A stretch of 64,000 nt of DNA from assembly GCA_000697665.1 (NCBI GenBank), contig KL197716.1:554782-618781 (forward strand), given 5' to 3'. Below are positions 10,981-22,130 of this stretch, piece after piece. Position 1 is the first letter of the stretch. Each line of letters opens with the position of its first letter. The stretch comes from Jaapia argillacea MUCL 33604 (taxonomy: Eukaryota; Basidiomycota; Agaricomycetes; Jaapiales; Jaapiaceae). A program made the translations under genes and the position numbers. A model generated the notes under the pieces. It saw only the letters and a list, made by a program, of their open reading frames with translations, was not told where the DNA came from and made no database searches.

Positions 10981-13379
10981 TCACCGGTACTCGAACATGA
11001 CTTGCACTGCAATAAATATGCATATGCATGCCGCGCCAAAGAAGCGAAGCCCTACCATAACATTTGAGACGAAGGACGGTTGTGAAGAAAGCACAAGCTC
11101 ACCTTCCCAAGTCTGAAGTAACTGGGTGATCATATACGACATCCCATCTAGCCCAACCACAAATCCGACTAAGTTGGCAGTCAACATCATCAAACCATTG
11201 AATATCGCCCCAAAGGCGCAAATATGTCTATACCACCATTCTCCGCCATACTGAATACCCGAGGAAATGGAGGTTAGTAATCGTCGTAGGACGCTAGTAA
11301 TTGCGATCATGCCTTGGACGAAGGGAGGAGATAACTGGCAACCAACTCAGGGAGGACGAAGAGGCTGACAAGCCATCCCCAGGCCAAAAGCCGGAAAGAA
11401 AGGTCATGCCAGAGGGCAACGAATGAGAAGACGAGGATGGTCGTGAAGGCGACGTTCTTTGTTCCTCCCAGCGGAATGTAGATGTAGCTGCGAAAGTAAG
11501 GCGGCATGATCAAGACCAGTGCGCGCGTGGAGAGGTGACATTCAGGGCTAACCGTACAATCCAAAGATTATAACTACGATGCCAGCTTCTCCAAAACCCG
11601 AAGGTCGAGTAATTGTTGGCCATACAGCGGATCATGTTCTCAGGAGGATCGATACCATCTGCGAGAGCCCACAACCGGAAAAATCGCCATGGTAAGAGTA
11701 GCTAATCGACGAGATATGAATAAGTCATTCAGACGCAATCAGAAGGAACCCCATACCTTCAACCAGACGATCATCAAGTTCCATAATCCAACCATACTCA
11801 GTTCGGCAGGCGTATCCCCAACCCACGCCTTCGTGTCCTTGATGGCAACAACATACATAAAGTGCAGGATGAACTCCATTGTGAGGAGACAAAACAGGAA
11901 CCGCATTAGGTATGATGTTACTGTACTTCGCGAGATTGAAGTCGGACGACGGATCTGGGAAGAACGAAGCTAAGATCCATGTCAAAAGGCTAGATCCAAA
12001 AGTCGACTCGCCTGCCAGATGAAATCGTTGAAGGTGATGATCGGACCCGCGATGTACAGCGGGGGATACAGGACGTAAGCAATATAGTTCTTATAGGAAT
12101 ATATCTCGAGGGGATGAGGGGTCGAGGTCCGTTGTTTGAAGTCCAGCTCAGATCCACTCTGCAGCGTTAAGATAAAATCAAACACGAGAATGGTAGAGTG
12201 AAAGGAGGGTATTAACCTCAGTAGGTTTCTCCCGGATACAGGCCCAGAAATAATCCATATTGAAGGATATGAGTCGAAGCATGGTGATGTTAAAACTGAC
12301 ATGCCATCGCGGGTACACGCCGCTGATACTGTCCTAGCACGTACAATTGAGTTGGGACGAGTCAAATGGGCAAGACAAGTGTACATACCAAAACCTCCAG
12401 CGACGTATGCAGACTAGCAAACTTGTATCCAGAATTCCATTCATTGGCAAACAGAACGCCCATATTAACCACCCAAGTCAATAATGGAGCTAATTTGGGA
12501 TGACTTTGGCCGAAAGATTTGGCAATCGCGTAGTTGATCGATAGAATTATGAGGACTTTGATTATACTCGTTCCATGCAAAGCCAGTAGCATAACGATGG
12601 AAAAGGTTAGTAGGAAGGGTATACGGTGGAGAGCGGTATCGATGGTGGAAGTATGCTGGGATAAGGAGGGTGATGATCGCTGGCTTGAGAAGCGGCCATA
12701 GATGGACTTGGCAATGAAGAAAGCAGAGACTAGAAGACTGAGAGCGGGGATATTGTTACGGAATGAGCGATATTGTGTATCACTGTTGTCCTATTGAGCG
12801 AGTCGAACATTAGCTATAGCTGGGACTCGAGCAGCAAGGCAATAGTGGGGAACTCTTATTAAACCTTAAAATGGACAGTGACTGAAATAAATGGCAGGAA
12901 TGTATTCGACCCGTGCCCACGGCATACTTGAACAAATATAGAAGGGAGATAGTCGCAGAATTGGGGATTCCCATAGTGTTTTAAAACAGTCAGTCAAACT
13001 ACTCACCACTCGTCTGCCAAATAACCAACCGCTCGACAGCCGGTGACTGAAGAGGGGATAATTTGGATGTGACTCTATATGATCGTCAAGAGAGTGCTAC
13101 TCATTACAGTGTAGTATTCTGCGCACCTGAACTCAGAGAAATTGGTATCCAAATCATAATAGGGACGACAATCAAGAAAGCCAGCTCATAGAAGGCAAAC
13201 TCGGGAGTCTTCCATCGTGCGGGTGGTCTTGTCTCCGGGGAGCGCGCTGCGCGAGAGGACGAAGGTATCTCAATAGTCATAGATATGATACCATGTGGCT
13301 TCCTGGGACTAGGAGAATCCAGTTCAAAAGGAGAGACAGCGTTCAGGTCGGAGGGCATGTTTAAGACTGTGTCTGGCAT
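10981..13379 (-). CDS. GUP1: MBOAT O-acyltransferase, glycerol uptake protein 1 homolog
   Basis: Ten exons (minus): 13379-13127, 13074-13007, 12790-12389, 12333-12217, 12158-12012, 11954-11757, 11701-11553, 11487-11313, 11250-11103, 11051-10981 (575 aa, close to yeast Gup1). Multi-pass ER membrane protein; family members remodel the lipid of GPI anchors. Recognised family segments: [32 protein letters not shown], the MBOAT core [12 protein letters not shown], the catalytic-His region FVALWHDL, then [11 protein letters not shown] and QVMFEYR at the end. Two introns (12011-11955, 57 nt; 11312-11251, 62 nt) fit only with GC donors (GCGAGT and GCATGA). The 216-nt second intron is long for this window. 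Divergent from CKB1. Confidence 0.9.
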
Positions 13380-13691: not shown

Positions 13692-14819
13692 ATGCTGCGA
13701 CGCACAGTGGAAGAACTTTCCACAGGATCAGATTCGGATTATTCCAAGTGAGTGCTGACTTGCGATCCTTCCGTGTGATGAGTTGGCTGAAACGCTGCAG
13801 CTCGGTAATGGTTGCGAGGTCAATGCTTTGGCGATTATGACTATCTGACACCCGCCTGTATCTTTTAGTGGATATCATGGTTCCTTTCATCCAAAGGAAA
13901 TGAGTACTTTTGCGAAGTCGAGGAGGACTACATCCTCGATCGATTTAACCTCACAGGCTTGAACACCGAAGTCGCAAACTACTCTCAGGCTCTGGATCTG
14001 ATCACGGACAACTTGGGTGCGCCTCCTTTCCTATTGTCTTGCACCGCACCGGTCTAATTCCGTAGCTAGACGACGAAATTCAAGATGAACTACGCGGTTC
14101 ACTCGATGTACAGGCACGACTACTATATGGGCTGATTCATGCGAGATGGATCGTCACAGCTCGGGGTCTCGCCAAGATGGTAACCCGTCCGGCCTCTGAT
14201 AGTTTACTTTCACACTGACGCTCATTTCGTAGCTCGAGAAATACAAGAAAGCAGATTTCGGCCGATGTCCACGAGTCCTCTGCCAATCTCAACCCCTCCT
14301 CCCAGTCGGTCTCACCGACATCCCCTACGAAAAATCAGTCAAACTCTACTGCGCCCGCTGCGAAGACATCTATTCTCCCAAATCCTCCCGTCATGGCTCG
14401 ATCGACGGAGCCTACTTCGGCACATCCTTCCCTCATCTCTTATTCCTTGTATACCCCCATTTAATCCCACCGAAAAGTGGCCCGCCAGATGTCAGTGCTG
14501 CAAGCGGTAGTACAAGTACGAGTGGTGGGAGGGAAGAAGGAGGGAAGAGGGTTGCTGGCAGGAGAGCGAGAGAGGAGGTTGATGTGGGTGTTGCGGAGGG
14601 CGTTGGGGAGGGTGCAAGTACTGCAGCCGCTGCTATGAAGGCAGATAGGTACCGGCCGAAGATATTTGGATTCCATGTTCATGAAATTGCGAAATTGCAG
14701 AGATGGCAAGAGGCAGTGAGAGACAAGTAAGTCATCCGTTAGCCAGTTTTCATCTCTGATCCCGACACCCACTTTCTTTTGGTAGGCAGGTCGTCAAACT
14801 GGAGGAGATTGATGTATGA
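13692..14819 (+). CDS. CKB1: Casein kinase 2 regulatory beta subunit
   Basis: Regulatory subunit of the CK2 tetramer; it dimerises through a zinc finger and docks catalytic alpha subunits. Exons: 13692-13747, 13801-13804, 13869-14016, 14070-14179, 14233-14726, 14786-14819 (281 aa). Diagnostic segments: acidic N-terminus, [27 protein letters not shown], then the C-x4-C (CPRVLC) and C-x2-C (CARC) zinc ligands and [16 protein letters not shown]. The second exon, CTCG, is 4 nt: without it the first exon ends in the wrong phase; with it the flanking introns are 53 and 64 nt and the joined codons read NS before WISWF. Exon 4 uses the second of two overlapping acceptors (TAGCTAG). A low-complexity Gly/Ser/Ala linker precedes the C-terminal KIFGFHVH. 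Confidence 0.9.
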
Positions 14820-17970: not shown

Positions 17971-19320
17971 TCATAAAAGGACGTATATCTCCAAGAACTC
18001 TATCTCAGCCCTCATAAGCTCTTCATACGAACTCTGTCCTTTAAACACATCAAAGTGACCTATAAATCAAAAACGACGATCAAATTCACCCTCAGCACCA
18101 GACAACACCATATGCGAGTCCGACTTACCACCAGGAATAACCAAGTACTCGCATTTCTGAGCTTTAGCAGGTAAGCGACCGATATCAACTATCGGAATCT
18201 GGACATCATCCTCAGCGGCGATGATGAGGATTGGACAAGCGACGTTCGATATCTTATTTTCTGGTTTATAAGGGAGGATTTCGAAAGCGCTGGAAGCTGA
18301 TATCTATTACGCGTCTGAGATGAAGTATGAAAAAAGCCTTGAAAAAAAAGGGAACTGACCTCGTTAGGATAGATGCTGTGAGGAAACGAGACAGAGAAAG
18401 TGAGATCAAAGGCAAGGCCAGCGGATTAAACTGATATTCGCACCTCCTATCAGGGAACTGTTCCATCAAGGTTTGATACGTTCCAGGGCCAACCATCATA
18501 CCCACTTTTCCGGGCAGAGCGGTGCCAGGAATATAGATGGGTTTCAGTCTCAATGCTTGTTTGATCCAATCCAGTATTCCAAGTAATCCGCCCTTGACTA
18601 GACCGGAGGTCATGACGACGTTGGTAGGAAGGGATGGGTGTGGACATTGGGCGATCACTGCGAGGATGTTGAGTTCTGGCTGTCAGCGTCCACAAGCCGT
18701 CAGCACCTCTTGTAGGGAAGAGAGGTTGAAATGCGTACTTCACTTGCTATAGTGATAGCATGTCCTCCTGGGTAGGAACTGTGAGGCGACGATTGAGACG
18801 GAAAGGTAGAATGGGGTCGACGAACCTGAAAAACTGTAACCCCACAAAATGACACGGTTAGGGTCAATCTGTGCCTGTTGTCTGCAATACTTGACGACAG
18901 TTCGATAATCCTCCAGTTGTTCCTTCACCACTATGCAATGCCGAGGAGACCCATCTATAAACAAGCAATAATGTCATTCAAAAGCCATGAAAATAGAACG
19001 GCAGAAGGCAGGGATACCAGAAGCGCCCCAGCGACGGTAATCGAAAACGACACAAGCATGTCCCAACGCAGCAAATGTTTCGGCATACGGAGCAAGGCTC
19101 ATGAGTTTGTTGCAACTTAACCCATGCGCCCTTTGGAATCTTTAATTTTAGTACCAGACAAAGGTATTCTTAAACTCAGGGGAACTTACATGACGATGAC
19201 GGGACAAGGCTTCGCCCCTTTAGTTGGGATGTACTGCCAAGCATCCAGATTCCAGCCTGGAGTTGCCGAGGGAATCTTGACCGTTGTCAAATCGAACAAG
19301 TCATTTAGATTGGGATCCAT
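17971..19320 (-). CDS. Alpha/beta hydrolase
   Basis: Eight exons (minus): 19320-19190, 19130-19018, 18954-18826, 18767-18744, 18675-18444, 18375-18360, 18303-18129, 18059-17971 (302 aa). A complete catalytic triad is visible: Ser in GYSFSG near residue 120, Asp in AAEDD, His in PGGHFDVF. An HGLSCNKL oxyanion-type motif and FDYRRWGASDG follow the first exon. Family members in fungi include esterases and polyketide thiohydrolases; the substrate is unknown. Exon 6 is only 16 nt (codes IYPNE). The start at 19320 is the first in-frame ATG; upstream sequence stays open back to about 19430 and encodes a hydrophobic stretch (YLLSGLVIATL), so a longer N-terminus from a further exon is possible. The exon-4 donor (GTGAAG) was chosen over GTACGC because only it keeps phase. 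Confidence 0.82.
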
Positions 19321-20455: not shown

Positions 20456-22130
20456 ATGCGTTTTACGAGCTTTGCTGTTGTCTGCGCGGCGGTCACTGCT
20501 GTCTGTGCCGCTCCCTCTCTTCAGCCAACGAAACGCCAGACTGCCGCTGCTACCGTTTACTCGAGCTGTGTAACAGTGCGTTCTCCTTTTTTCCTTCTTT
20601 CAACCCAAGGGATCCTGACGTCCATTTCAGCCTAATACCGTCGCGTTGACTTTCGACGATGGTGTTTACATTTACGAGAAGAGTGGGTCGCTGTCCGTCT
20701 GGCTCCCTATTTCCCCAGGAGTAATCTCGTTTTCCAGACATCTCCGATATGCTAGTTCAGAACCAGATCAAGGGAACCTTCTTCGTGTCAGTCTTTTCTT
20801 CGTCTGTCTTATATCCACCAATCTGACGACATCGTTCGTTTAGGAACGGCAATAACTGTGAGTTCGCTCTAGAGTCGCGTTCCTCGAGATCCTCATTCGA
20901 ACTTGGGAATCAGGGGCGTGTATATACGACACAGATATGGTGGCCAATATCCAAAATACCTTCGCTGGTGAGTTCTGCAAGTTACATTGCCATTGGAAAC
21001 GACGATTGACTTCTTCCTTTACGCCTATTAGCTGGTCATCAAGTAGCGGCTCACACTTGGTCACATCCGGATTTGACCACGGTAAGTTCCTGCCATTCAG
21101 TCCCGTTGCTTCGAAGCTAACAGCGTCTCCCTGAAGCTCACCGAAGATGACAGTACGTGTTACTCTGATGCTTTTCAGTCATGTCAGAACTCAACGCGAT
21201 CCATTCTCAGTTACCAGCGAGTTCGAACAGTAAGTTTTGGATTTGCCTACTCGATTTAATTGTGTTCATTTGCCGACTTCGTCCCTCAGGATAGAAAGTA
21301 ATTATTCCATGTGCTTTATTCCACGATACAGGCTCTAACATAACACAGCCGCCTTGAACAAGATTCTCGGTATCCAACCCGCTATGATGCGTCCAGTACG
21401 TCCTTTTCTTTAGCATATCCCAGCCAATATCTGAGCACTTCCTCCCACTCAGCCCTACGGCAATTACAATCCCACTGTACAGTCGGTTGCTGCCGCCCGA
21501 AACCAAACCGGTAAGTTATCTATACTTCCTACTTCTCCCATACAATTCTCAATGTCGCTTTTCAAGTCATCGTCTGGGACTTCGAGTACGTATCCGTCCT
21601 CATGCAAGACACTTTCCTCGTCTGATTTCGATCCGTGTTTGCAGCGATGGCGATTCTGAGGGTGCTACCGTTGCCGCTTCGGAGGCAGCTTACGACGCGA
21701 TCATCGCCAAGAAGCCTAGCACCATCATGTCGCTCAACCACGAAACGTACCAGACTACCGCGTGCGTATTTCCTACCTTCTAGACGCCTTTGCTTCTCGA
21801 TATCGATCCATTTCTTCCTCATTATAGTCAAGACGTCCTACCTTACGCCATCGCCGCACTGAAAAAGGCTGGATACACGTTTGCTACTGTTTCTGAATGC
21901 CTTGGGATCCCCGCCTACCAATGTGAGCTCTATTCCTTCTTTTGACTTGCCATGTATCTGACCTCCCGTACGTTCAGGGACCACATCGCCCGGTACTCCC
22001 GACGTGAGCAGTTCCCCTTGTACCTCATCATTTCGCCCCCTCACATCATCTGTTCTTACAGGCATCTTGGACATGCGCCAACTCCACCCAGCCCGGCCCC
22101 GGCCGCCGAGAAGTCTACCACCGTCGCTGA
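20456..22130 (+). CDS. Secreted polysaccharide (chitin) deacetylase, CE4 family
   Basis: Sixteen exons: 20456-20575, 20631-20682, 20738-20786, 20844-20857, 20914-20967, 21032-21081, 21137-21152, 21211-21229, 21290-21297, 21349-21395, 21453-21510, 21567-21585, 21645-21761, 21828-21922, 21978-22003, 22062-22130 (270 aa). Begins with a signal peptide (hydrophobic, ending near CAAPS). CE4 motifs in order: TFDDG, HTWSHPDL, RPPYG, WDFDDGD and LNHE, so the metal ligands Asp-His-His and the catalytic residues look intact. It should remove acetyl groups from cell-wall chitin or chitin oligomers outside the cell. Introns (862 nt) exceed coding sequence (813 nt); exons of 8, 14, 16, 19 and 19 nt occur, and all fifteen introns are 51-66 nt. 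Ends TPDASWTC like other fungal members. Confidence 0.9.

Follow-up and report, generated by a model that had tools for sequence, protein, structure and literature searches.

A predicted four-nucleotide internal exon in a CK2 regulatory-subunit gene of the basidiomycete Jaapia argillacea

Very short exons have been described in fungi and in plants. The CYP621A P450 genes of Fusarium contain an exon of 1 nt that has RNA support (PMC12940212). The gene models of Phlebia radiata include exons down to 2 nt, and the first exon of its GAPDH gene consists of the start codon only (PMC6540522). Exons down to 6 bp are found in P450 genes of Phanerochaete chrysosporium (PMC1184071). In Arabidopsis, APC11 has a single-nucleotide exon, for which the authors suggest intron definition and step-wise removal (PMC4674806). 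A microexon of Xlr2 in Trichoderma virens has been reported as a switch (PMC11121469), and in Ganoderma very short exons were recovered worse by long reads than by short reads (PMC11590231). A literature search that combined casein kinase II, CKB1 and microexon found no report, a result of limited coverage and little weight. Searches of the literature for CK2-beta peptides gave a single paper, on by-products of plant seeds.

Here, we examine a candidate exon of four nucleotides, CTCG, in a 64,000-nt stretch of the J. argillacea MUCL 33604 genome (43.7 Mb in 95 contigs). This whole stretch is called the window (G000:C8:554782-618781), and positions refer to it unless another sequence is named. 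With CTCG included, direct reading of the + strand gene at 13692-14819 yields a CK2 regulatory subunit (CK2-beta) of 281 aa. The protein matches PF01214 (E 8e-70; 234.8 bits, the cut-off being 27; positions 1-181 of the 182 in the profile) and six distinct CK2-beta sequences in the PDB (E 5.4e-72). Its CPRVLC and CARC align with CPRVYC and CPKC of a PDB chain, a CPxxxC...CxxC pattern that we take to be the four-cysteine zinc ribbon of CK2-beta. The gene is presumably closer in type to budding-yeast Ckb2 than to Ckb1, so the name CKB1, under which it was first described, is a loose one. The features of the gene are collected in Table 1. No repeats were found around the CTCG site. Upstream, a divergent gene was modelled on the - strand (11982-13358); its start lies about 330 bases from the CK2-beta start codon, and the two genes may share a promoter region.

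Table 1. Modelled features of the CK2-beta gene and the competing 10-nt exon (window positions).
Feature	Position	Strand	Remarks
Exon 1	13692-13747	+	56 nt; ATG at 13692; 18 residues and two bases of the next codon; ends AA; direct reading
Intron 1	13748-13800	+	53 nt; donor GTGAGT, acceptor CAG; branch-point candidate GCTGAAA
Predicted 4-nt exon CTCG	13801-13804	+	would provide the third base of the N19 codon and all of the S20 codon
Intron 2	13805-13868	+	64 nt; donor GTAATG (weak), acceptor TTTTAG (strong); branch-point candidate TCTGACA
WISWF exon, CK2-beta N-terminal part	13869-14016	+	begins TGG ATA TCA TGG TTC; PF01214 and PDB matches
CK2-beta exon	14070-14179	+	gene model
CK2-beta exon, CPRVLC...CARC and C-terminal insert	14233-14726	+	gene model, PDB alignment
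Last CK2-beta exon with stop codon	14786-14819	+	gene model
Rival 10-nt exon CTCGGTAATG	13801-13810	+	donor GTTGCG; frame-restoring

The proposal starts from the reading frame. According to the preliminary description, exon 1 ends in phase 2 at GTGAGT (13748) and the WISWF exon needs phase 0, and direct reading bears out both points. Because exon 1 leaves two bases over and WISWF starts a codon, the frame problem is real, provided that exon 1 is real. Joining 13747 directly to 13869 shifts the frame and leads to a stop after 49 codons. Moreover, no earlier acceptor can simply lengthen the WISWF exon, since the triplet directly before TGG at 13869 is TAG. The frame of exon 1 is the best of three by coding score (+1.2 versus -0.5 and -1.4), a weak signal on 56 nt. 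Given exon 1 as modelled, CTCG restores the frame of the conserved CK2-beta, as had been claimed, and yields the 281-aa protein where its omission yields the 49-codon stop. The coordinates first given for the exon, for the CAG acceptor ending at 13800, for the GTAATG donor and for introns of 53 and 64 nt are all correct, and the four bases have the AG and GT borders and the tiny size of a microexon.

CTCG is one of four middle exons of at most 60 nt that restore the frame with introns of at least 28 nt: 13801-13804, 13801-13810, 13783-13804, and 13783-13810, with lengths of 4, 10, 22, and 28 nt. The two longer ones need an intron of 35 nt (13748-13782); a length of 38 nt, originally stated for the 22-nt alternative, has to be corrected. 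CTCG stands as the frame solution in that it scores highest in both settings described below, but the 10-nt exon, which restores the frame equally well, had been overlooked. Several other arrangements were rejected. Stepwise removal of all 121 nt as a nested (twin) intron breaks the frame, given exon 1. With GT at 13752 as an alternative exon 1 donor the frame is kept, but a stop is read before it (AAG TGA), and the donor GTGGAA at 13707 yields MLRRT-WISWF at a score 6.4 nats worse.

To score these structures, a semi-Markov gene finder was trained on the window plus 200 kb of contig C1 (25,596 bases being N). Splice matrices were estimated only from introns between exons of at least 45 nt, so that tiny exons were kept out of training. 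The training set held the CK2-beta introns 14017-14069 and 14180-14232, and both introns flanking CTCG were left out of it. Two branch-point settings were used, a narrower, strict one (motif at least 10 nt from the 3' splice site; 395 introns) and a wider, lenient one (408 introns). The reference set of 408 came from a rerun with looser thresholds and the wider branch-point window, which was adopted after the narrower run, whose window shut out motifs close to the 3' splice site and for that reason placed the CAG acceptor only at the 0.8th percentile; this widening favours CTCG. The gene finder is crude, and on another locus (L008) it fused the genome's other CK2-beta gene with the neighbouring genes.

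The outer splice sites of the putative intron pair are good and the inner ones are poor. The donor GTGAGT lies at the 92nd percentile of the 395 introns and scores at or above 374 of the 408 reference donors; the acceptor TTTTAG at 13869 is at or above 273 of the 408 reference acceptors. GTAATG at 13805, with a score of -1.2, falls below every one of the 408 reference donors and is used in none of the 395 introns, and the CAG acceptor of 13801 equals or exceeds no more than 17 of 408 under the wider setting (0.8th percentile of 395 under the narrower). The preliminary description was right in calling the GTGAGT donor clear but passed over this weakness of the inner sites. In intron 1, the best branch-point match begins at 13754, which is probably too close to the donor. 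GCTGAAA is the match that can be used; its A lies 11 nt before the 3' splice site, and for this distance the reference introns have a 1st percentile of 10 nt and a 5th percentile of 12 nt. The A of TCTGACA in intron 2 is 21 nt away. On splice and length scores, with no intron prior, inclusion of CTCG beats skipping by only 0.8 nats, and it loses by 4.5 nats once the cost of an extra intron is counted.

When any exon size is allowed, the gene finder picks exactly the CTCG structure as its Viterbi choice, and no other coding structure tried outscores it in the model of its own genome. The expectation that gene finders will miss this exon thus holds for those with a minimum exon length, but a simple model without such a minimum does find it. 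Under the wider setting, the total score was 15.9 with CTCG and 14.8 with the 10-nt exon, and structures in which every exon is longer than 10 nt reached at most 11.6; under the narrower setting, CTCG scored 13.4 and the best model free of tiny exons 11.6. The lead over the best model without tiny exons is 4.4 nats (wider) or 1.8 nats (narrower). Among 6922 structures enumerated upstream of 13869 in the wider setting, the weight was 0.69 for CTCG, 0.21 for the 10-nt exon, and 0.001 for the 22/28-nt exons; among 7448 in the narrower setting, the corresponding weights were 0.33, 0.10, and 0.006. Structures that use neither the acceptor of 13783 nor that of 13801 took 0.09 (wider) and 0.55 (narrower), including 0.05 and 0.31 for a first exon that consists of a bare ATG at 13808-13810. 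CTCG ranks first in both settings, with a narrower-window lead over the bare ATG exon of only 0.06 nats. The true weight should lie between the two settings, because reference introns do use branch points 10-12 nt away, but rarely. Pfam bits barely separate the candidate N-termini (4 nt, 229.8; 10 nt, 228.8; no microexon, 229.1; one-base error, 229.4).

Taking all evidence together, we lean slightly towards the view that CTCG truly is an internal exon of this CK2-beta gene. No better interpretation is available, and tiny exons are a kind of phenomenon that is already known. The alternatives differ in which part of the model they give up. Exon 1 itself may be wrong, and 13869 may be joined in phase 0 by another first exon, by several 5' exons in a row, or by the bare ATG, so that nothing between 13748 and 13868 would have to serve as an exon in between. 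The shortness and weak coding score of exon 1 and the weights of these structures, above all in the narrower setting, speak for this explanation, and Phlebia radiata GAPDH provides a reported precedent for an ATG-only first exon (PMC6540522). The bare ATG exon, however, needs the donor GTTGCG, which with a score of -2.4 is below all 408 references, and would leave no acidic N-terminus and nothing at all before WISWF. The next first-exon candidates lie 1.8 (narrower) or 4.4 nats (wider) under CTCG, and the best of those with a real N-terminus give a basic, non-conserved one (RIRFGLFQ). We consider an error in exon 1 unlikely, though it is the alternative to be taken most seriously.

If exon 1 is right, the tiny exon could instead extend to 13810 (CTCGGTAATG) and give ...DYSNSVMWISWF. 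Such a 10-nt exon restores the frame without a stop, leaves introns of 53 and 58 nt, and is locally only 0.45 nats under CTCG, but it depends on the same GTTGCG donor, weaker than GTAATG, places Met instead of Ser before WISWF, and loses 1 bit in Pfam; we judge it somewhat less likely again than a misjudged exon 1. A one-base assembly error near the exon 1 donor would allow exon 1 to join 13869 through a single intron of about 121 nt. Both outer sites are strong, introns of 100-140 nt exist (1.5% of 395), and the Pfam bits of this N-terminus are equal to those of CTCG within 0.4. Nevertheless, this explanation requires an event absent from the data; no sign of an error was seen, and CAA followed by GTGAGT is already a donor at the 92nd percentile. 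We regard an error as improbable. Least credible by far is a middle exon of 22 or 28 nt starting at 13783. It too would restore the frame, but its donors are equally weak, its weight is minimal in either setting, and its 35-nt intron compares with a shortest reference intron of 42 nt among 408, in a model that allowed introns down to 28 nt and whose length prior was trained with a 40-nt floor.

Frame rescue by chance was assessed with 4000 simulated introns of 121 nt in which the 6 bases at the start and the 25 at the end were the real ones. Some frame-restoring exon of at most 60 nt occurred in 47% of them. A rescue scoring at least as high as CTCG was present in 13.7%, such an exon of at most 10 nt in 8.5%, and one of exactly 4 nt in 2.2%. 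When the interior bases were shuffled instead (4000 trials), 25% offered a rescue as good as CTCG and 16% one of at most 10 nt. At these rates, the splice signals alone are not beyond chance. The CTCG site should thus not be regarded as compelling on its splice signals; its support, moderate overall, comes from the frame, the acidic N-terminus, and precedent in the genome.

The frame of exon 1 gives an acidic, Ser/Asp-rich N-terminus, with an 11-residue acidic stretch, before WISWF. Among the 6918 structures that lack this exon 1 (wider window), a net acidity of at least 3 over the last 17 residues occurs in 94, and a Ser end in 1930. Ser directly before WISWF is also found in the PDB CK2-beta chains shown and in a eukaryotic homologue from another contig (L010), whose N-terminal sequence, SSGEDSCGESLEDTEQSWISWF, is acidic and runs unbroken through the CTCG site. 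Budding-yeast Ckb2 presumably has EYVDMW at the matching place, with the same spacing as DYSNSW of the window gene.

A family search of the J. argillacea genome itself found one further CK2-beta locus, on C1. This second gene has a long acidic N-terminus, with Thr rather than Ser before WISWF, and an intron that, as read here, falls within the tenth codon ahead of WISWF. Because its intron position differs, it offers no second copy of the CTCG site. It runs from position 1965 of L008 on the + strand (G000:C1) and, besides the different N-terminal intron position, has an acidic stretch towards its C-terminus. Scans of viral_contigs and genome_contigs with short peptide patterns, which can miss relatives, found no relative with a comparable intron, and with six and then two such patterns no fungal relatives. 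The viral_contigs scans yielded no relative at all, and the sole one from the genome_contigs scans was L010, which is too distant to help. This eukaryotic CK2-beta gene (L010:3001-3599) lies in a contig whose title names a Euryarchaeota MAG and is probably a contamination.

Precedent within the genome was sought among the other predicted internal exons of at most 15 nt. There are 10 of these among 461, CTCG being one, and the other nine lie in eight genes. Pfam searches covered six of the eight, namely all but those whose tiny exon has 2 or 15 nt, and proteins with and without the tiny exon were compared for the CLPTM1, ARF, and polysaccharide deacetylase genes. The tiny exon is inside the Pfam domain match in these three and in an MFS gene. 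The CLPTM1 gene has a 4-nt exon, GACT (L023:6104-6107, + strand; G000:C1:1126104-1126107), which leads from phase 2 to phase 0 between introns of 54 nt. Over about 100 residues around it, the protein scores 193.8 Pfam bits, and the best structure in which all exons exceed 15 nt scores 181.2. In the ARF gene, an 11-nt exon (L030:3075-3085, - strand; G000:C1:1193075-1193085) raises the Pfam score to 270 bits from 250.7 without it, and residues 1-179 of the protein align unbroken to the solved ARF chain 5uf8_A. The deacetylase (window 20456-22130, + strand) has an 8-nt exon at 21290-21297, with 105.5 Pfam bits versus 88.8 without it and a gene-model score about level with the best rival (33.9 versus 33.7). 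Its gene was modelled with 16 exons, the tiny ones being 8, 14, 16, 19, and 19 nt long.

These homology-supported exons of 4, 8, and 11 nt show that the genome uses tiny exons in conserved genes, and because they occur in the same genome, the CTCG proposal is realistic. The advantage of inclusion over skipping without an intron prior is +12.9 nats for CLPTM1, +15.5 for ARF, and +5.8 for the deacetylase, and with the intron cost it is +7.6, +10.2, and +0.5; CTCG, at +0.8 and -4.5, is the worst defined of the four. GACT resembles it in being 4 nt long, in leading from phase 2 to phase 0, and in supplying one base and one codon. Unlike CTCG, however, GACT has strong inner splice sites (5.8 and 4.2 versus 1.6 and -1.2) and lies inside a conserved domain, and it is the better-supported 4-nt exon. 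As for the remaining candidates, a gene at 17971-19320 on the - strand (8-nt exon) had no Pfam match, and the 9-nt exon of a GNAT gene falls outside the protein searched in Pfam. The latter exon (95.1 versus 94.4) and the 2-nt exon (217.2 versus 216.8 for its rival) have near-level gene-model scores and are not claimed.

Introns of 45-75 nt are expected to be recognised by intron definition, under which tiny exons are tolerated. Of the 395 reference introns, 86% are in this range, the size for intron definition, and the earlier statement that an exon as small as CTCG strains exon definition was therefore overstated. CTCG would complete the Asn19 codon with its last base and encode Ser20, the residue immediately in front of WISWF. 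The introns of 53 and 64 nt would each be recognised by intron definition, and their removal would be sequential, as suggested for the Arabidopsis exon (PMC4674806), because GTAATG and CAG are only four bases apart and simultaneous binding of U1 to the former and of 3'-splice-site factors to the latter is hardly possible. Given strong outer and weak inner sites, the outer pair probably competes with the inner one; in some transcripts CTCG is then probably skipped, which would shift the frame, end translation after 49 codons, and lead to degradation. It is conceivable, but quite doubtful, that CTCG is an on/off switch whose inclusion rate sets the amount of the CK2 regulatory subunit, with skipping as a 49-codon dead end for decay. 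If CTCG is real, finders with a minimum exon length would mis-annotate the gene, either losing its N-terminus or reading it in a shifted frame. The site would then also offer a clean natural substrate for studying how intron-defined splicing handles sites that are too close for joint binding.

Among known systems, one that CTCG resembles is the exon of Fusarium CYP621A. Both cases are fungal, join incompatible phases beside a conserved motif, and were found by manual frame logic, whereas only the Fusarium case has 24 genes, an intronless homologue as a length marker, an identical AGGGT context, and SRA reads (PMC12940212). Xlr2 is likewise a fungal microexon whose inclusion or skipping alters the product; its inclusion is reported to be regulated, while regulation of CTCG is only a possibility (PMC11121469). 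The APC11 exon of Arabidopsis, like the proposed CTCG exon, is a constitutive one that restores the frame and has a length that is not a multiple of three, but it comes from a plant, is 1 nt long, and was shown by cDNA and reporter constructs (PMC4674806). The reports on Phlebia and Phanerochaete, as far as their excerpts go, are general statements on other basidiomycete genes and hold no CK2-beta case; with the gene described here these fungi share short introns and very short exons (PMC6540522, PMC1184071).
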